Assembly (NCBI GenBank): GCA_025059075.1
Contig: JANXDZ010000002.1
Location: forward strand, 248,001 to 312,000
Length of the DNA stretch: 64,000 bases
From: Sulfolobales archaeon
GTDB taxonomy: Archaea > Thermoproteota > Thermoprotei_A > Sulfolobales > Desulfurococcaceae
Reading direction: 5' to 3'
This document shows, piece after piece, positions 11,939 through 31,953 of the stretch (within the stretch, counting starts at the first letter, position 1; every line of letters starts with the position of its first letter). The position numbers and the translations under genes are program-made. The notes under the pieces were generated by a model. That model worked only from the letters and a program-made list of their open reading frames with translations. It ran no database searches and was not told where the DNA came from.

Positions 11939-13345
11939 CTACTTTTTCTCCATTTCTTGAACTATCTTCCATTGCTCAGCTGCAATAATGTCTAAGGCAT
12001 CATCTGGGTTTATTTCCTTGGCTACAGCTTTATTGAGGTATAGTTGCTGGACTTCAAGCATTCTGCCATAGTAAGGTATGTTCCAGAAGTCCTTAGCGTA
12101 TATAATAGCCTCTTTATACGCCCTAGCCCATGGCTTAGAGTTTAGGAATTCAGGGCTTTCAGCTACCGATATTCTCCCCGTAAACCCTACTCTTATGGAA
12201 TAGTCTTTATATGCAACTGTGTAGAACCACTTTAGGAAGAGCTTTGCTTCATCCTTATACCTAGAGTAAGCACTTATTACTAGTGGCTGGCCGCCTAGCA
12301 TTGTATATCTTACACCATTATGATGCGGTTGTACAGCTGATTCAGTCACATTCCAAACCTTTGAAGTAGCTGGATCATAGAGTGCTCCAGACATAGAGGC
12401 CCACATAGCTGTCATAGCTACCCTGCCCTCAGCATAGAGGGAGATTACTTTATCGTAATCAAATGTTGGTGCACCAGGAGGCATGTAGTTAGTTAACTCT
12501 ACGAAGAACCTCAAAGACTCCTTGGCTTGAGTACTATTGATATACCCTATTGGGTTACGCGTAACGGGATCCCACAGCTCAGCTCCCCAGCTCCAAAATA
12601 CGCTAAGGTAGAAGCAAGAGATAAAGTCGTAATCCCTTGATAGGACTAGTGCTAGGCCATAGAAGTCTTCATCCAAGGTCTTGCCTGCTAGAGTCTCGCC
12701 CTTCTTTCTAGTGAAGAACTCAGCTATATCCTTTAATTGAACCCAATCAATATTCATCCACTCTTCAAGAGTTGTAGGTAAGTCATATCCATACTTCTGC
12801 TTAAATGCAGCTCTCTCATCCGGGTGACTGAAGAGGTCTTTTCTAAAGTGGAGGAGTGGCGTTGCATCAGCAGTTCCAGGTATGCCTACGTAGTTATCGC
12901 TTCCCTGTGGATAGGCTGTGTAGAAGTATATTAAGTTCGGGAAAGTGTCTTCAAGAACCGCGTACCTCATCTCAGCGTCATTTAGGATGAAGTCCTTTAA
13001 CGATATGATGTGCCCACCTTCCCAGAGCTCTCCTAGCCACTGACTGTCTGCAAATATTATATCTGCCTCAGGGCTCCTAGCTGCAACTACGCTAGTAACT
13101 CTCGTATAGTAAGTCCCCCATGGAGTGACATCGAGTTTAACGTATACTTTATACCCCAACTTCTCCTCAGCATATGAAGTAAAGTTCTTAGACATTTCTT
13201 CAAGGATAACTGCAGGTTCCCACTCAGGGCTCAGTATGACTAATGTAACTTCCTTAACAGGAGGTCTATACATGACGAAGTACACTGCAATAGCTGCTAC
13301 TACAATTATTACTAAAACTATGGCTAAAAGAGTTGCAGTCTTCAA
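11939..13345 (-). CDS. Sugar ABC transporter extracellular binding protein
   Basis: A 468-residue protein with an N-terminal hydrophobic anchor (about residues 4-26, then M-Y-R-P-P) and a periplasmic-binding-protein body of the MalE-like family 1 type. No lipobox cysteine follows the helix, so it is probably held by the uncleaved N-terminal helix or by an archaeal signal. Start is TTG at 13345 after GAGGTG; the minus-strand TATA GTTTAAAAACT lies at 13380-13391. It is divergent from the permease-permease-ATPase-ATPase operon starting at 13532, a common arrangement for one importer. Aromatic and acidic content suits a sugar ligand, but the ligand is unknown. Confidence 0.92.
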   Translation of the reverse strand: MKTATLLAIVLVIIVVAAIAVYFVMYRPPVKEVTLVILSPEWEPAVILEEMSKNFTSYAEEKLGYKVYVKLDVTPWGTYYTRVTSVVAARSPEADIIFADSQWLGELWEGGHIISLKDFILNDAEMRYAVLEDTFPNLIYFYTAYPQGSDNYVGIPGTADATPLLHFRKDLFSHPDERAAFKQKYGYDLPTTLEEWMNIDWVQLKDIAEFFTRKKGETLAGKTLDEDFYGLALVLSRDYDFISCFYLSVFWSWGAELWDPVTRNPIGYINSTQAKESLRFFVELTNYMPPGAPTFDYDKVISLYAEGRVAMTAMWASMSGALYDPATSKVWNVTESAVQPHHNGVRYTMLGGQPLVISAYSRYKDEAKLFLKWFYTVAYKDYSIRVGFTGRISVAESPEFLNSKPWARAYKEAIIYAKDFWNIPYYGRMLEVQQLYLNKAVAKEINPDDALDIIAAEQWKIVQEMEKK

Positions 13346-13531
13346 CCTTTATACACCTCACTAATATTTTAACAAGGCAAAGTTTTTAAACATTATTGTA
13401 GAGTATTTACTTAGTCATATTCTATATTTTCTATATTCATATACTAACGCTACGGTTAATCAATAGCTATAAATGAAATAAAAATTTAAGTAACGATAAT
13501 AAATGTCATAGTGGATATAGGGTGTTTAGCT

Positions 13532-14449
13532 ATGCATAAGCTGCTCAGTAAAGGAGTTTTAAACAAAGGAAGAACGCTGAATCCTTGGCTAATGATACTA
13601 CCAGCCTTCCTTATACTCCTAGTATTCAATATATTCCCCCTCCTATGGAGCCTAGGGATATCGTTTCACAGATTCTCAGTAATAATTAGGGAAATACCTA
13701 GGTACGTGGGGGGGTTAAATTACATTAATGTTATCACTAGTGCTGAAGCTTGGGATAGGATCATTAGAACAGGCATTTACTTAGCGTACTCACTATCATT
13801 TCAATTCGGACTGGGGTTGCTGCTTTCACTCCTGTTATTTGAGGATTTTAAGGGCAAGAGAATACTGATAACATTATTTACGATACCTTTAATGATAGCT
13901 CCTGTAGCCTCCTCACTGTTCTTCAGGTATTTATTTGACGAGAACCTTGGACCTGTTAACAACTTCTTAAAGCATGTAGTAGGATATGGGCCTCTATGGT
14001 TTAGTTCAGATATAAGCCCCCTTGGAATACCTTATGCTCTCTTCACTGTAATATTAGTTGAGACTTGGATATGGACTCCCTTCGTAATGTTTCTCTTAAC
14101 AGCAGGCATGAGCTCCATCCCCCAAGACTTAATAGAGCAAAGCAGAGTAGACTCCTTGAAGTTTAGACACAAGTTTAGATACGTAATTCTACCGTATATT
14201 AAACCAATGATAGCTTTAGCATTGATCTTTAGGTTCATGGATTCCCTTAAGACATTTGACTCCATTTACATATTAACTGCAGGAGGCCCTGGAGCTACAA
14301 CTGAACTCATATCAGTTTATATATATAGAGTTGCTTTTGAAAGATGGGACTTTGGATCAGCTACAGCGCTTAGCTACTTAGTATTAGTCATAGTTATATT
14401 CATGACTAATGTATTCATGAGATATATACTCGGTGGTGAAAGATCGTGA
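13532..14449 (+). CDS. Sugar ABC transporter permease, MalF type
   Basis: About 305 residues with six predicted membrane helices, beginning with a long hydrophobic segment (L-M-I-L-P-A-F-L-I-L-L-V-F) and carrying the EAA-like loop around Q-D-L-I-E-Q-S-R-V-D-S, which contacts the ATPase. I choose the ATG at 13532 because GGGTG lies just before it; an in-frame GTG at 13511 adds seven residues. A TATA-like AAAAATTTAAG at 13480-13490 fits a transcript start near 13511. Its last codon overlaps the GTG of the second permease (GTGA), so the two are translationally coupled. Confidence 0.92.
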   Translation: MHKLLSKGVLNKGRTLNPWLMILPAFLILLVFNIFPLLWSLGISFHRFSVIIREIPRYVGGLNYINVITSAEAWDRIIRTGIYLAYSLSFQFGLGLLLSLLLFEDFKGKRILITLFTIPLMIAPVASSLFFRYLFDENLGPVNNFLKHVVGYGPLWFSSDISPLGIPYALFTVILVETWIWTPFVMFLLTAGMSSIPQDLIEQSRVDSLKFRHKFRYVILPYIKPMIALALIFRFMDSLKTFDSIYILTAGGPGATTELISVYIYRVAFERWDFGSATALSYLVLVIVIFMTNVFMRYILGGERS

Positions 14450-15294
14450 GGAAGCGCAACCAATACACCACGCCTTTAATACTATATAGAGTTAGGAAAT
14501 CTCTAAAGTTTGCATTACTAATAGCTCTACTAATGATATACCTCATACCTATATATGGGATGTTTTCACTAGCCTTTAAACCTAGGGCAGAGATCTATTC
14601 TGGGCTCTTTGAGTTAACTAGAATAACTCTTGAGAACTTTGAAGAAGCATATAGATATGGTGCATATAGTGCTATAACGAATTCCATAATAGTAACTGTT
14701 GGAGGTGTATCAATAGCTTTAATACTAGCTGTTCTAGCATCTTATGCTTTCTCTAGGTTCGCTATTAAAGGAAAGAACATATTGATGTTTTACATACTTT
14801 CAACAAGGATGATGCCCCCCATAACGCTCATAATACCCATATTCATAATGTTCTTCAACATAGGCCTTAAGGGAACTTACCTAGGGCTCATACTAGTTTA
14901 CGCAATGATGTCCATTCCTTTATCCATTTGGATGATAAAGAGCTTCATAGACGACATACCTAAGGACATAGATCAAGCTGCATTAGTAGATGGGCATTCA
15001 ACTATGTTCATACTCTTCAAAATAATAATACCCATGGTTATTCCAGGAATAGCTGCCTCAGCAGCTTTCGCAGCCATAATGTTGTGGAATGAATTCCTCT
15101 TCGCACTGCTCTTAAGCGGCGTTGATACAAAGCCTACATCCGTTTTACTCAGCAGCATTAGGGGAGAGAGGGGCTTTAATTGGGGTAGAGTAGCTGCAAT
15201 TGAAGTAGTATACATACTACCAATAATAGTCCTAGTATTCTGGCTTCAGAAATACATGCTAAGGGGACTCACGTTCGGTACTGTAAGGAGGTGA
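14446..15294 (+). CDS. Sugar ABC transporter permease, MalG type
   Basis: A 282-residue partner permease with about six helices. The EAA loop D-I-D-Q-A-A-L-V-D-G-H and the later W-N-E-F-L-F-A-L-L-L motif are typical of MalG/UgpE subunits. Start is GTG at 14446, overlapping the preceding stop; the end overlaps the first possible start of the following ATPase. It resembles the partial permease at the left edge of the window, so the genome has at least two related CUT1 importers close together. Confidence 0.93.
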   Translation: MRKRNQYTTPLILYRVRKSLKFALLIALLMIYLIPIYGMFSLAFKPRAEIYSGLFELTRITLENFEEAYRYGAYSAITNSIIVTVGGVSIALILAVLASYAFSRFAIKGKNILMFYILSTRMMPPITLIIPIFIMFFNIGLKGTYLGLILVYAMMSIPLSIWMIKSFIDDIPKDIDQAALVDGHSTMFILFKIIIPMVIPGIAASAAFAAIMLWNEFLFALLLSGVDTKPTSVLLSSIRGERGFNWGRVAAIEVVYILPIIVLVFWLQKYMLRGLTFGTVRR

Positions 15295-15299
15295 GTGAT

Positions 15300-16406
15300 G
15301 TGAGTAAAAGTGAGTACGTTATTCAAGTTAAAAATATTGTGAAAACATACAATGGTAAAATAGTCTTAAACAACATATCGTTTGCTTTAAAAAGAGGAGA
15401 GCTACTAGCCATTCTAGGACCACCTGGATCTGGGAAAACTACATTGCTTAAAATAATCGCTGGACTTGTTAAACAGGATGCAGGCGATGTCATAATTAAT
15501 GGAAGGATAGTCAATGATTTACCGCCATATGAGAGAGGAGTTTCCCTAGTATTCGAAACACTTGCCCTTTATCCAAATATGAGCGTTTATGAAAACATAG
15601 CATCTCCATTGATTGCTGAGAAAAAGGATAAAGAATATATTGACAAGAGAATTGGAGAAATAACAAGGCTCCTCAAGATCGAGCACATACTCGATAGAAA
15701 GGCCGATAAGTTAAGTGGTGGAGAAAGGCAGAGAGTAGCTATAGCTAGGGCTTTAGCTAAAGAAGCAGAAATATATTTATTAGATGAGCCTCTCTCAAAC
15801 TTAGATGCTAAGATACGTTATGCGCTTAGGACGGAGTTTAAGAAGCTGAAGTCACTCTTAGGTAAGACGATAATCCTCGCCACATCTGATCCTAGCGATG
15901 CCTTAGCGTTAGGTGACAACGTAGTACTCTTATTCAATGGCGCAATAATTCAAGAAGGGCGGCCCAGCGACATATATTATGCTCCAAGAAACATATCTAT
16001 AGCAAGGTACTTGACTGGAAACATACTTAATGAAGTCTCAATATCCATCGATACACATGGGGATGATGTAAGCACAGACATTGGACGTGAATTCTCAATA
16101 GATCCTTATTTCCTTAAAGTATTGAGGGAAGTCAATGAAACCTCCATTATTCTAACAAGCTATGCTGATGTATGCATAATAGATAAATTCATAGAGAACT
16201 GCTCTGGTATTAAAGTAATAGGGGAATTCATAGGATATGAATATAGAGGCAGTGAATACTTGCTATACGCAAGGAAGGAGCGGAGGATATTTAGATCTTT
16301 AAGGACTAACTTACCTAACGTAACTTTTGGAGAAAAAGTAGAAGTGTGTATCCCACATAGGAATGCTCTTTTGTTCAGCAGTAAGACTGGGGATTTAATT
16401 AGGTGA
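15300..16406 (+). CDS. Sugar ABC ATPase A with altered Q-loop and switch residue
   Basis: About 368 residues, MalK-like. Start is set at GTG 15300 because GGAGGTGA lies at 15287-15294 with proper spacing; the GTG at 15291 is inside that site. Walker A GPPGSGKTT, signature LSGGE (138-142) and Walker B Asp162-Glu163 are intact. The Q-loop glutamine is Glu86 (V-F-E-T-L-A-L-Y-P), and the switch histidine is Ser196 (L-A-T-S-D-P-S-D). Its neighbour has the reverse defect, a lost signature motif, so the two probably form a heterodimer with one good and one poor ATP site. The C-terminal regulatory domain is present but divergent. Confidence 0.9.
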   Translation: MSKSEYVIQVKNIVKTYNGKIVLNNISFALKRGELLAILGPPGSGKTTLLKIIAGLVKQDAGDVIINGRIVNDLPPYERGVSLVFETLALYPNMSVYENIASPLIAEKKDKEYIDKRIGEITRLLKIEHILDRKADKLSGGERQRVAIARALAKEAEIYLLDEPLSNLDAKIRYALRTEFKKLKSLLGKTIILATSDPSDALALGDNVVLLFNGAIIQEGRPSDIYYAPRNISIARYLTGNILNEVSISIDTHGDDVSTDIGREFSIDPYFLKVLREVNETSIILTSYADVCIIDKFIENCSGIKVIGEFIGYEYRGSEYLLYARKERRIFRSLRTNLPNVTFGEKVEVCIPHRNALLFSSKTGDLIR

Positions 16407-16412
16407 TATAGC

Positions 16413-17522
16413 TTGGTTAGCATAAAGCTAGTCGATATTTCAAAAACTTTTGGAAGCATTGAAGCACTTAAAAACGTAAACCTCGAGATCCATGACGGCG
16501 AGCTATTTGCAATACTTGGGCCCAGCGGTTGTGGAAAGACAACTCTACTAAGAATAATTGCAGGACTAGAGAAGCCTACAAAGGGGAGAGTGTACTTTGA
16601 CGATATTGATGTAACTAATATACCTGCAGAAATTAGAGATGTATCAATGGTTTTCCAATTCTATGCTCTATATCCTACAACAGTCTTTAACAACATAGCC
16701 CTACCCCTAAAGTCTAAGGGATATTCAAAAATAGATATTGAGAAGAGAGTTAAAGAAATAGCTGAACTAGTGGGCATAGATAAAGCATTAAAGCTGCACG
16801 TTGATAAACTCAATGTAGCTGATAAGCAGAAAGTTGCCTTAGCTAGAGCTATGGCTAAGGAACCACGAGTGTACTTATTTGATGAACCTCTTACAATACT
16901 AGATCCCGTTACAAGAGTCATAATGAGGAGTGAGTTAAAGAAGCTACAGCAGAAATTAAAGCAGACAATAATATACGTAACCCACGACCAAATAGAGGCA
17001 CTAACTCTAGCTGATAGAATAGCTGTAATGAATTTTGGAGTAATTGAACAAGTAGGAACTTCATGGGATGTCTATAATTTACCTGATACAACTTTTGTCG
17101 GATGGTTCCTTGGGGAGCCTGGAATGAACTTCATTGAAGTAGCCGTGGATAGAGATGACTTAAGCATAAAGATAGGTTCTAAAAAGATCTTTAGGGATCC
17201 AAGAGTAGGTAAGAAGCTCCTAGACTTAGGTTTAGATAAAGTTCTCCTTGGTTTTAGAGCTGAAAACGTTGTCTTAGTTAGAGAAGCACTTGATGTAAAT
17301 GCTTTTAATAACATAACTATAGATGGCGTCATTAGAGTAATCGAGTTCTTTGGAACTCACTACGTTGTTAACATAGAGATAGAAGGATTCGAGTTTAAAG
17401 TTAAATTAAATGTAAGTGAATTTAATAAGCTAATGCTTAGTGAAAATAGTAAAATAAATGCTTTAGTAAAAGCAGATAAAGTTTGTTTCTTCAACTTAGA
17501 TAACAATAGGCGCATCTTATGA
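16413..17522 (+). CDS. Sugar ABC ATPase B with degenerate signature motif
   Basis: A 369-residue MalK-like subunit. Walker A GPSGCGKTT (36-44), Gln82, Walker B Asp157-Glu158 and switch His191 (V-T-H-D-Q) are canonical. The signature LSGGQ is replaced by LNVAD (133-137), and the D-loop reads L-T-I-L-D rather than L-S-N-L-D. Its Walker A face combined with the LSGGE of ATPase A would make a complete site; the other composite site would lack the signature, the Gln and the His. Start is TTG 16413, with AGGTGAT six bases before it overlapping the upstream stop. It ends in an ATGA overlap with the next small gene. Confidence 0.9.
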   Translation: MVSIKLVDISKTFGSIEALKNVNLEIHDGELFAILGPSGCGKTTLLRIIAGLEKPTKGRVYFDDIDVTNIPAEIRDVSMVFQFYALYPTTVFNNIALPLKSKGYSKIDIEKRVKEIAELVGIDKALKLHVDKLNVADKQKVALARAMAKEPRVYLFDEPLTILDPVTRVIMRSELKKLQQKLKQTIIYVTHDQIEALTLADRIAVMNFGVIEQVGTSWDVYNLPDTTFVGWFLGEPGMNFIEVAVDRDDLSIKIGSKKIFRDPRVGKKLLDLGLDKVLLGFRAENVVLVREALDVNAFNNITIDGVIRVIEFFGTHYVVNIEIEGFEFKVKLNVSEFNKLMLSENSKINALVKADKVCFFNLDNNRRIL

Positions 17523-17809
17523 GGGTGAATATGGTGGTTAAACGTAAAACCATTGAGGAACTCTTGATCATTGCAGGGATCATTGGCTTAGTGCTAACTT
17601 TCCAGCCGTTTAACATTATAGGCTATACTATTGGCTGGATCATATTGCTTAGCTGTACTTTAACTTACGTAATCTTTACTTTAATTCCACACAGCACTAG
17701 TTCCAAGAGAGGGCTTCTAAAAGTATTCATTAAAACTCTATTGATAGTGCTCGCCATCGTCATATCATTCGTAGTGCTATCCATACTGCTGACGCCTCAC
17801 ATAATGTAA
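17519..17809 (+). CDS. Small membrane protein at the end of the sugar importer operon
   Basis: A 96-residue protein with about three hydrophobic stretches (roughly 14-29, 33-55 and 68-92) and a basic start. It overlaps the ATPase B stop codon by four bases (ATGA), so it is co-translated with the importer. A second ATG at 17531 is possible. I do not recognise a family. Position suggests an accessory subunit or assembly factor of the importer; equally it could be an unrelated passenger. Confidence 0.7.
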   Translation: MRVNMVVKRKTIEELLIIAGIIGLVLTFQPFNIIGYTIGWIILLSCTLTYVIFTLIPHSTSSKRGLLKVFIKTLLIVLAIVISFVVLSILLTPHIM

Positions 17810-17897: not shown

Positions 17898-19136
17898 ATG
17901 TCTAGTGGCTTAAGTAAGCTTAGAGTAGGCTTTATTGGAGCTGGTTTCTCAGCTAAATTCCATGCAAGAGCTTTCGCCATGATTAGAGATGCTGAAATAA
18001 CAGCTGTGTATTCAAGAACAGAGGAATCTGCAAAAAAATTAGCTGCATTAATCGAGAGCTTGGGGTTGAGGAAGCCCAATACTTATACCGATCTATTCGA
18101 CATGCTGAGACGTAAAGACCTGGATGCTGTTTGGATCCTTTTACCCAATAACCTCCACTTAGAGGCTACTAAAGCAGTAGTTGAAGAAGTTACTCAAGGC
18201 AGATCTAGCGTGATTGGAGTAACTGTTGAAAAGCCCTTGGCCAGGAACTCCAGTGAGGCAAATAAAATGGTTGAATTAGTTGAAAAAGCAGGGCTTCTCC
18301 ACGGCTATCTTGAAAACCAAGTATTCATGCCATCAGTATCTAAGGGTAAGGAAGTTATATGGAATATTGGAGCAAAGTACTCTGACAGACCTTATTTAGC
18401 TAGAGCAGCTGAGGAGCATGGGGGTCCTCATAGCGCTTGGTTCTGGAGGCCATCTATTTCCGGGGGAGGAGTTTTATTAGACATGGGGTGTCATAGTATA
18501 GAGGCTTCTAGAGAACTACTACTTAAGCCAGGGGAAGATAAATATCATTTAAAACCTAAACATGTCTACGGTGAAATAGCCTTCCTAAAATGGATAAAGG
18601 AGACTTATGCTGAAGAACTGAGGAGGAAATTTAGCGTAGACTTTCTCAAAGAACCGGCGGAAGACTATTCATTAACCATAGTGACTTACGAAGATACTGA
18701 TGGAGCCCTTGTAGTTACTGAAGCAAGGACTTCGTGGGCATTTATCGGAGCTGGATTAAGGCTTACGTTTGAAGTACTGGGGCCTGAGTATAGTTTAAGC
18801 ATAAACACGCTTCAACCAGAGCTATTCACATTCATAAGCAGAAACATAAGGATACCTCCTACAGAGGAATTTATTGAGAAGCAGAATGCTGAACAAGGAT
18901 TAATGCCCGTAATACCTGATGAAGCTATTACCTATGGCTATCAAGCAGAGGACGCCCACATGGTTAAGTCCTTTATAAATAAGAAAATGCCCTATGAGAC
19001 GTGGCGCGATGGACTCTTAGTAGTTCAATTAATGATGCATTCATATCTATCGGCTGAAAAAGGCGTTAAAGTAAGATTCGACCCCCTTCAAGTAGAGGAC
19101 TATGTTCCTCCAGTAGCTAGATTAATGAAGGATTGA
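17898..19136 (+). CDS. Gfo/Idh/MocA family NAD(P)-dependent dehydrogenase
   Basis: A 412-residue oxidoreductase with an N-terminal Rossmann fold (V-G-F-I-G-A-G-F-S-A-K-F-H) and the family E-K-P motif (V-E-K-P-L-A-R-N). The C-terminal half carries G-G-G-V-L-L-D-M-G-C-H-S-I-E, the usual strand-helix with the conserved Asp and His of the active site. Family members oxidise or reduce sugars and cyclitols. It has its own promoter but directly follows the sugar importer operon, so it may process the imported sugar. The exact substrate is not visible. Confidence 0.9.
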   Translation: MSSGLSKLRVGFIGAGFSAKFHARAFAMIRDAEITAVYSRTEESAKKLAALIESLGLRKPNTYTDLFDMLRRKDLDAVWILLPNNLHLEATKAVVEEVTQGRSSVIGVTVEKPLARNSSEANKMVELVEKAGLLHGYLENQVFMPSVSKGKEVIWNIGAKYSDRPYLARAAEEHGGPHSAWFWRPSISGGGVLLDMGCHSIEASRELLLKPGEDKYHLKPKHVYGEIAFLKWIKETYAEELRRKFSVDFLKEPAEDYSLTIVTYEDTDGALVVTEARTSWAFIGAGLRLTFEVLGPEYSLSINTLQPELFTFISRNIRIPPTEEFIEKQNAEQGLMPVIPDEAITYGYQAEDAHMVKSFINKKMPYETWRDGLLVVQLMMHSYLSAEKGVKVRFDPLQVEDYVPPVARLMKD

Positions 19137-29357: not shown

Positions 29358-29806
29358 TGACATAGGCAGTCTATCCCTTTATGGGATTAGTACGCTTAGC
29401 TATCTTCAAGCCATTATTAGAGAGCATGCTATAACTCGCTAAGCGGAGTTAAACACTATACTAGCGATCTTTAAAGCAGCTACTAAATGATATAGTCATT
29501 GCATAAAGCGATGCACTTAGTCATTATATGAAAAAGTGTATGTAAAAAGAGTTTTTAGAACCAAAGCGTGAATATGCTTGCTCCAAGGTTTTTAAATGAA
29601 GTCCTCCACATGCTTAAATAGTTTAAGGCCACATAAGTTAGTAGCTTGAGACATATTGTGTGGAACTAAGCAGCGCTTCTCCATATGGCTTATGGAGGCT
29701 CATGAACATTCTGTGAAGGTAAACCATGGTCGTAGCGAACTGCTTTCGAGATCCAATGAATTATAGCGATGTGAATGGGAGATAGCTGCATATAGTTAAG
29801 TTAACT
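29358..29806. other. Convergent 449-base spacer
   Basis: Lies between the ends of the beta-RFAP synthase and cysteine synthase genes. A direct repeat TAGTCATT (29493 and 29518) brackets a TGCAT/ATGCA hairpin (29500-29515). There are T-rich stretches near 29550-29600. No coding frame or known RNA was recognised. Confidence 0.45.
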
Positions 29807-30817
29807 CTAACTTCCCTCTATTTCTTCAAGTATCTTGTCCCTCGGAGTCATGGTCTTCTTTTTCCTAAAGAGACGTGTACTAAAGTATCTTGCTGCATAA
29901 TCTGGGAGTACAGTCACTATTCTAGCTCCATAGCCTAAGTCATACTCTTTAGCTACTTTTATTGCTGCAGCTACATTTGCTCCACTAGATATGCCTACAG
30001 GCAGCCCCTCTTCTCTCGCTATTCTCTTAGCCATGCTTATTGCTTCATCACTTGTAACAGTTACAAAGCCATCTATGAGCTCCTTGTACTTAGAGATTAT
30101 TTCAGGTATGAAGCCGTCTCCAACTCCTTCTATCTCATGCCTACCCCTTGGGCCTGGAGTACCTGTTTTAAACCACTCAGTTATTGTCGGGCATTCAGTT
30201 GGCTCAGCTCCAACAACTATAGTCCTTGGATTCGCTTCCTTAAGCCTCTTAGCTACTCCTATTAATGTGCCTCCAGTCCCTACTTCAGCAACCCAAGCAT
30301 CTACTCTACCTAGTTGCTCAAGTATCTCTCTTCCAGTTGTAGCGTAGTGAGCCCAAACATTTGCTTCATCACTCCATTGATCGAATAGATAGTACTTATC
30401 GGGGTTTTCTTCAACAATTTTCTTCGCGTACTCCATGGCTTTAAGGGCATCAATTCCCCCTCCTGGAGTAGTAATGAAGTCTGCGCCAAGCAGCTTCATT
30501 AATAGGAACCTTTCTTCACTCATTTCCTCAGGTATTACTATTAAAACTCTATAACCTAAGTAGCTCCCTATAGCTGAGAAGGCTATTCCAGTATTGCCAG
30601 TTGTAGGGACTACTAGAGTCATGCCTGGCCTAAGCCTTCCACTGGATTCAGCTGCTTTAATCATGTAGTAGGCTATTCTATCCTTAACGGATCCCGTGGG
30701 ATTCATAAACTCTGCCTTAGCCCATACCTCAGCCCTAATTTCCATGGAAGATATTTTACTAAGCTTTATCATTGGAGTATGACCTATGCAGTCAAGTATA
30801 TTGTAGCACAACTTCAC
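29807..30817 (-). CDS. cysK: Cysteine synthase (O-acetyl- or O-phosphoserine sulfhydrylase)
   Basis: A 336-residue fold-type II PLP enzyme. The PLP lysine is in N-P-T-G-S-V-K-D-R, the phosphate region is T-T-G-N-T-G-I-A, G-T-G-G-T is the second loop, and G-I-S-S-G-A-N precedes the C-terminus. It forms cysteine from an activated serine and sulfide. Because the window also carries SerA and a SerK-like serine kinase, O-phosphoserine is the likely substrate, as in Thermococcus. Cystathionine beta-synthase without a CBS domain is an alternative. Start is GTG 30817 after GAGGGGG. Confidence 0.88.
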   Translation of the reverse strand: MKLCYNILDCIGHTPMIKLSKISSMEIRAEVWAKAEFMNPTGSVKDRIAYYMIKAAESSGRLRPGMTLVVPTTGNTGIAFSAIGSYLGYRVLIVIPEEMSEERFLLMKLLGADFITTPGGGIDALKAMEYAKKIVEENPDKYYLFDQWSDEANVWAHYATTGREILEQLGRVDAWVAEVGTGGTLIGVAKRLKEANPRTIVVGAEPTECPTITEWFKTGTPGPRGRHEIEGVGDGFIPEIISKYKELIDGFVTVTSDEAISMAKRIAREEGLPVGISSGANVAAAIKVAKEYDLGYGARIVTVLPDYAARYFSTRLFRKKKTMTPRDKILEEIEGS

Positions 30818-30957
30818 GCTTAAACCCCCTCGTTATAGAGGCTTCCTCAAAATATATGTTTTTCACCTAAGGCTACTGCATAGATCTTGGGAAAGAGCTT
30901 AGCGTTTATTTAGCTGTTAGAGCTAGAGTATCGTTAATAAGTAATAGGGTGTTTGCA

Positions 30958-31953
30958 TTGAGTGAATTAACTAAGCTAGGCTTCAGCCCCGGCCTCACTA
31001 GCACTGAGTACTCCCTTAAGCTATTAAGTGAAGTAAGTGAGTCCTTCAGTAAGATAAGTGAGTTAAGAGCTTTAACTAAGGCTTATTCATCAATAGTAAG
31101 TAGAGTTAAGGCTGAGAGACCTACTTCAGCTCAAGCAATCAATTTATTGAAGGATCTTGGCGTAGAGATCGTTAAGTCCATGGAAGAGAAAGCTGACTTA
31201 AGCTATGTAAAGAAAAACGTCCTTGAATTTGTAGAGAAATGGAGGAATAGGATACAGAGAGAGTTAAGTGAAGTAAGTAGAATAGCTTCTAGAAGAATAA
31301 GCAGTGGGGAAAGTATCTTAACTCACAGTAGGAGCATGTGTGTAGTTAGGACAGCTGAATACATAGTGAGTGAGGACAAAAAGCCCATATTCTACGTTAC
31401 AGAGTCTAGGCCAGGCATGGAGGGCCTCGTCTTAGCTGAAGAGCTGTGGAGGATGGGTCATAGAGTTAAGCTCATAGTTGATTCAGCAGCAAGATTCTTC
31501 ATGAAGGACATAGATCTCGTACTGCTTGGTGCTGAAGCAGTAGCCGCTAATGGAGCTATAGTAAGCAAAGTCGGGTCAAGCCTAATATCGCTAGCAGCCA
31601 ATGAAGCTAGAGTAAGGGTATTCGTACTAGCTCCAACTTCAAAGCTAAGCATAGAGACTCTCTTCGGGGAACTAGTTCAATTACCGGAGGGGGATTGGAG
31701 GAGGCTAATGCCTCCTGGAGTACTCTATACACTACCTGAGAACTATAGAGCTCGAGTACCGCTATACGACGTAATTCCACCTGATTACATAGATGGAATA
31801 GTGAGTGAGAAAGGCCTCTTCGCTCCTCAAGCAATATCTTACTTAATTAAGGAAGTCCACGGAGGCTGGCCTCTTAAAACAATTAGCTTAGAGAGCTTAG
31901 AGAAAGAGTTAAGCAAGTTAGTTGGAGGCGAAGTCTATGGAGATACCGATTAG
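30958..31953 (+). CDS. eIF2B/R15P isomerase-like paralogue lacking catalytic residues
   Basis: About 331 residues of the eIF2B-alpha/MtnA/ribose-1,5-bisphosphate isomerase family. The N-terminal helical domain is followed by a Rossmann-like part. The active-site Cys and Asp of the isomerases are replaced: L-T-H-S-R-S (Ser124) and L-L-G-A-E-A (Glu193). The next gene keeps both. So this copy is probably not an isomerase; it may be a regulatory partner or an aIF2B-like protein. I prefer TTG 30958 because GGGTG lies six bases before it; GTG 30949 is inside that site. It overlaps the next gene by 17 bases. Confidence 0.8.
   Translation: MSELTKLGFSPGLTSTEYSLKLLSEVSESFSKISELRALTKAYSSIVSRVKAERPTSAQAINLLKDLGVEIVKSMEEKADLSYVKKNVLEFVEKWRNRIQRELSEVSRIASRRISSGESILTHSRSMCVVRTAEYIVSEDKKPIFYVTESRPGMEGLVLAEELWRMGHRVKLIVDSAARFFMKDIDLVLLGAEAVAANGAIVSKVGSSLISLAANEARVRVFVLAPTSKLSIETLFGELVQLPEGDWRRLMPPGVLYTLPENYRARVPLYDVIPPDYIDGIVSEKGLFAPQAISYLIKEVHGGWPLKTISLESLEKELSKLVGGEVYGDTD

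Follow-up and report, generated by a model that had tools for sequence, protein, structure and literature searches.

Among ABC importers, the maltose transporter is the textbook case of a system whose two ATP sites are equivalent, and it has long been debated whether a transport event requires hydrolysis of both ATPs or of just one. It is well known that ATP sites can be asymmetric and that CUT1 importers with two ATPases exist, namely in glycerol uptake. Composite sites that include a degenerate one are described for TAP, MRP1 and Pdr5; in Pdr5, an LNVEQ signature lies opposite a switch His that has become Tyr, and a clamp role has been proposed for the degenerate site in exporters (PMC7756269). 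The glycerol transporter GlpSTPQUV of Rhizobium leguminosarum and its relatives has two ATPases, as described genetically, and the passages on it that were found there make no mention of motif losses in GlpS or GlpT (PMC7912956).

The importer operon analysed here lies in a 64-kb window (the whole stretch of 64,000 nucleotides that was analysed), taken from a draft genome of ~1.34 Mb in 19 contigs. It is compact, comprising a divergent binding protein, two permeases (P1 and P2), two ATPases (A and B), a small membrane protein and an oxidoreductase, at the following positions of the window:

11939..13345, − strand: extracellular solute-binding protein (SBP_bac_1), divergent from the operon; Pfam PF01547, E=4e-23
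13511..14449, + strand: permease P1, MalF/UgpA-like; Pfam PF00528, NCBIfam top match MalF
14446..15294, + strand: permease P2, MalG/GlcU-like; Pfam PF00528, NCBIfam top match GlcU
15291..16406 (likely start 15300), + strand: ATPase A, GlpS-like, with the signature kept, Q-loop Gln replaced by Glu and switch His by Ser; Pfam PF00005 and motif reading
16413..17522, + strand: ATPase B, GlpT-like, with Q-loop Gln and switch His kept, LSGGQ replaced by LNVAD and a TILDP D-loop; Pfam PF00005 and motif reading
17519..17809, + strand: small hydrophobic protein of ~96 aa with 2-3 TM segments, overlapping the stop of B; homologue after B in 7/7 operons
17898..19136, + strand: Gfo/Idh/MocA-type oxidoreductase; Pfam PF01408

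The solute-binding protein gene stands beside the permeases in 7/7 operons (this one and the six orthologous operons described below). The closest solved structure to its product is the trehalose/maltose-binding protein 1eu8 (E=1e-18); it is nearest to sugar-binding proteins, but at a distance too great to assign a substrate. The coupling loop of P2 is a canonical EAA loop (DQAALVDG), from which that of P1 (IEQSRVDS) departs, a difference that is consistent with a separate permease partner for each ATPase without amounting to evidence of it. A Pfam search placed the small hydrophobic protein in no family. The Gfo/Idh/MocA gene adjoins the cassette in 7/7 operons (on the opposite side in G041), and its retention there in all seven genomes suggests that the oxidoreductase probably acts on the compound imported by the transporter; like the binding protein, it gave no substrate assignment. 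The window also encodes a further MalK-type ATPase at 221-1318 (C12:248221, L004), all of whose motifs are canonical.

Sequence and predicted fold assign A and B to the MalK/CUT1 ABC ATPases. Profile matches extend through a MalK-like C-terminal regulatory region to residue 368-369 and score below the curated equivalog cut-offs. An AlphaFold2 model was built with A and B fused by reading through the stop of A in frame, using a paired alignment of eight operons; both halves are predicted to fold as MalK (pLDDT 85.5) and match 2it1 and 1v43 at a TM of 0.89-0.92 of target, while the pTM of 0.54 means that the relative placement of the halves is not fixed.

Reading of the open reading frames gives, for A, Walker A GPPGSGKTT, Q-loop VFETLAL, signature LSGGERQ, Walker B IYLLDEP, D-loop LSNLDA and switch LATSDP, and for B, Walker A GPSGCGKTT, Q-loop VFQFYAL, signature LNVADKQ, Walker B VYLFDEP, D-loop LTILDP and switch YVTHDQ. 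The motif losses set out in a preliminary description of this DNA are thereby borne out: A keeps LSGGE and has lost the Q-loop Gln and the switch His, and B keeps Gln82 and His191, correctly numbered, with LNVAD in place of LSGGQ. For A, the longest reading frame, from 15291, makes the Q-loop Glu residue 89 and the switch Ser residue 199; the GTG start at 15300 has a AAGGAGGTGA ribosome-binding sequence just upstream, better than that for 15291, and it is this start that the earlier numbering of Glu86 and Ser196 fits. Two features of B were absent from that description, the non-canonical D-loop (TILDP) and the loss of one residue right after the Q-loop (YP-TTVF). Both proteins retain the Walker A Lys and the Walker B Asp-Glu and, judged by eye, carry an aromatic residue close to the A-loop position.

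In the dimer geometry of ABC proteins, the D-loop of one subunit sits by the Walker A of its partner. The D-loop change in B therefore strikes the site that uses the Walker A of A, and once D-loop, signature, Q-loop and switch changes are placed, all of the losses gather on one composite site of the A-B pair while the other is complete. By the same geometry, an A-A or B-B dimer would have two defective sites; each ATPase has lost a different part of the machinery, so only A and B together could make a working site. We consider it probable, from these sequence comparisons, that A and B form an obligate heterodimer serving one CUT1-type importer, with one consensus ATP site and one degenerate, probably non-hydrolysing site. 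Site 1, in which the Walker A and B motifs, Q-loop and switch of B face LSGGE and the normal D-loop of A, would be complete and hydrolyse ATP. Site 2, in which the Walker A and B motifs of A (with Glu for Gln and Ser for His) face LNVAD and the altered D-loop of B, would still bind ATP and hydrolyse it slowly or not at all, probably serving as a clamp that holds while the cycle is driven by site 1. Binding of ATP at the degenerate site is likely, given the retained Walker A and Walker B of A and the aromatic near the A-loop in both subunits; hydrolysis there is unlikely, though some could be retained, since A still has its catalytic Glu, which many degenerate exporter sites have lost. We infer that A and B assemble only with one another, that site 2 binds ATP without hydrolysing it and that one ATP is spent per cycle.

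Six orthologous operons from the same family (G154, G089, G071, G077, G041 and G193) keep the whole cassette and every loss, at identities of 51-87% for A and 56-88% for B. The Q-loop Glu is found in 7/7 A proteins and the switch Ser in six, the seventh having Pro. SGG is found in 0/7 B proteins, whose signature varies (NVAD, NIAD, SVAD, SVAE, SIGD).

The distribution of such pairs was surveyed by searching A-type and B-type profiles against Thermoproteota, Pseudomonadota, Bacillota and two further archaeal phyla, and reading the motifs of neighbouring open reading frames. Among ~240 MalK-like ATPases read, there were 57 tandem pairs with complementary loss (from Thermoproteota, Pseudomonadota and one Bacillota), made up of 55 unique tallied pairs plus L128 and L224. 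Throughout the 55, A keeps SGG and has lost Gln and/or His (Gln alone in 11), and B keeps both Gln and His and never has SGG. In 46/46 tallied pairs, both A and B have the Walker A Lys and the Walker B Asp-Glu, as do 75 canonical proteins; replacement of the Walker B catalytic Glu, common at exporter degenerate sites, was seen in none of these 46 A and 46 B proteins. Among the first 169 unique MalK-like proteins, the 48 without the signature all have Gln and His, and the 46 without Gln and/or His all have the signature. The chance of zero overlap between the two kinds of loss is ~3e-9 if relatedness is ignored, and the real strength is below this figure, because the proteins are related. No protein with both kinds of loss, and no degenerate ATPase without a partner, occurred among the ~240. 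A follow-up of 40 stretches around lower-ranked matches, whose motifs were not known beforehand, brought nine further pairs and 31 canonical proteins, without any orphan. Because degenerate profiles guided the sampling, these frequencies are not population estimates. The Bacillota search covered 200 genomes and gave one complementary pair in the 15 loci whose motifs were read; the few Thermoplasmatota and Methanocorpusculaceae-phylum loci that were read held none. A single-gene search for distant relatives gave mostly canonical proteins, yet brought in the GlpST loci. The source genome has a second complementary pair in B-A order (G000 contig C16, ~29576-31772; L077: 7575-9771). The B of this pair has LGISEQQ and LTFADA, its A has VFENPPV and retains the switch His, and relatives of the pair occur in several other families. 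Two loci of Shimia (L118 and L122, G450) encode tandem MalK-type ATPases with all motifs intact and provide a natural comparison set of two-ATPase importers without complementary loss.

In a tree built without the Q-loop, signature, D-loop and switch columns, ATPase B falls into one clade with GlpT and several archaeal B proteins (bootstrap 100 / SH-aLRT 96). Mirroring this, ATPase A groups with GlpS and the same archaeal partners (99/91), within an A clade of 24 rows (100/95). When A and B trees were built separately from 37 pairs, 23/34 splits were common to the two, against a shuffled maximum of 3, with a distance correlation of 0.85; this mirroring indicates that the partners have been inherited together for a long time. 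AU tests did not reject a single origin (p 0.145 for B, 0.452 for A). The pairs of G383 cluster within their own genome, which hints at later independent cases of complementary loss. One of them, L090 (392-1483 and 1417-2586; pair support 100/98), is a half-way case 57% identical between its members: the B-like copy has lost the signature (LTPGEAQ), and its partner keeps Gln and His with a Walker A of APSGSGKTT. It is possibly an intermediate of complementary loss.

Co-evolution of A and B, suggested in the preliminary description, gains support from the strict complementarity, the absence of lone or doubly degenerate proteins and the mirrored trees; the constant co-occurrence of the two genes that it proposed to check holds among the ~240 proteins read. 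The comparison likewise supports its proposal that A and B pair up, leaving one ATP site complete and the other degenerate on both halves. The sugar substrate that it named is putative.

Other explanations of the locus have to be weighed against this proposal. Sequencing or assembly error, which that description named as a possible refutation and which a draft genome in 19 contigs might invite, is refuted: the six orthologous operons keep the losses, with the same residues, and some of those genomes are single contigs. The permeases might instead be driven by a shared, MsmX-like canonical MalK-type ATPase from elsewhere, A and B being decaying or regulatory leftovers; the same genome encodes four canonical MalK-like ATPases elsewhere, and MsmX is common to several importers in B. 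subtilis (PMC11466899). We regard this as very improbable, since A and B are intact, with the same substitutions at 51-88% identity in seven species and always directly behind the permeases, and such persistence argues against decay; none of 46 pairs has lost Walker A or B, and perfectly complementary loss is not what decay is expected to produce.

A slightly smaller chance still is given to A-A and B-B homodimers, each with a transporter or state of its own, in which the altered motifs would simply be tolerated. Homodimers are the norm for MalK-type ATPases, but here each homodimer would have two defective sites, the operon has just one permease pair, and every degenerate protein among ~240 has its partner. 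More serious, though still unlikely, is an A-B heterodimer in which both sites hydrolyse ATP and the substitutions tune rate or coupling to two different permeases. The catalytic Glu and Walker A Lys retained throughout the tallied pairs, the differing coupling loops of P1 and P2 and the 11/55 pairs with the switch His kept all speak for it; against it, a single composite site bears the changes in signature, D-loop, Q-loop and switch alike, and the switch His and the signature Ser/Gly are among the most critical residues of MalK-type ATPases. An obligate A-B heterodimer with a single hydrolysing site is the reading we prefer.

What appears to be new is a family of complementary, one-site-degenerate MalK-type pairs common to archaea and bacteria; the open-access papers searched gave no earlier description of it, nor any of a degenerate site in GlpST or another CUT1 importer, and prior notice in subscription papers is possible. 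Tentatively, and with somewhat less than even confidence, we suggest that GlpST-type heteromeric MalK ATPases define a class of asymmetric carbohydrate importers in archaea and bacteria that is large, ancient and so far undescribed, and that uses one hydrolysing site per cycle. Tandem duplication would have led to complementary loss on more than one occasion, and L090 of G383 would be an intermediate. A natural MalK-type family with one site consistently disabled makes the question of one versus two ATPs directly testable, and the complementary pairs give the two-ATPase glycerol importer a mechanistic rationale. They also carry a warning that such ATPases should not be annotated singly.

The Pseudomonadota pairs belong to the glycerol importer. 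Rhizobium L124 has, in sequence, a DeoR/GlpR-family regulator, glpD, two ATPases, two permeases, DUF2160, binding protein and glpK; glpD adjoins the ATPase pair in L125, and glycerol enzymes apparently lie beside it in L014 (read from open reading frame sequences without a profile search). In GlpS-like proteins, LSGGQ is retained and Thr or Ser replaces the switch His, much as ATPase A keeps its signature and has lost that His, but GlpS keeps the Q-loop Gln where A has Glu. GlpT-like proteins resemble B, with Gln and His kept, an LTADQ-type signature and a TVIDP D-loop. Complementary loss is therefore not unique to the A-B operon, since GlpST has the same arrangement. The neighbours differ: glpK, glpD, glpR and DUF2160 are absent from the A-B operon, which has a Gfo/Idh/MocA gene instead, and a glycerol kinase gene is present elsewhere in the source genome. 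Both cassettes include a small membrane protein, DUF2160 in the glycerol importer and the 96-aa protein without a Pfam match here.

MalFGK2, archaeal GlcV and Thermococcus MalK (CUT1) share fold and family with A and B, by sequence and predicted structure. MalFGK2-type systems have one ATPase gene and a symmetric homodimer with two complete sites, whereas the A-B operon has two ATPases with complementary losses. TM287/288, TAP, MRP1 and Pdr5 combine one consensus and one degenerate composite site, as proposed for A-B, and the putative role of site 2 resembles the clamp proposed for exporters (PMC7756269); those exporters, however, have fused membrane domains, and their degenerate site often lacks the Walker B Glu that is kept in A-B. 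The preliminary description took asymmetric sites to be best known from exporters; the exporters do match, but importers outside CUT1 are also known, as RbsA/NupO have one degenerate site (PMC11466899). RbsA/NupO are type II, CUT2-type systems, with two ATPase domains in one chain and the Walker A Lys lost in the second, and so belong to another importer class than A-B.
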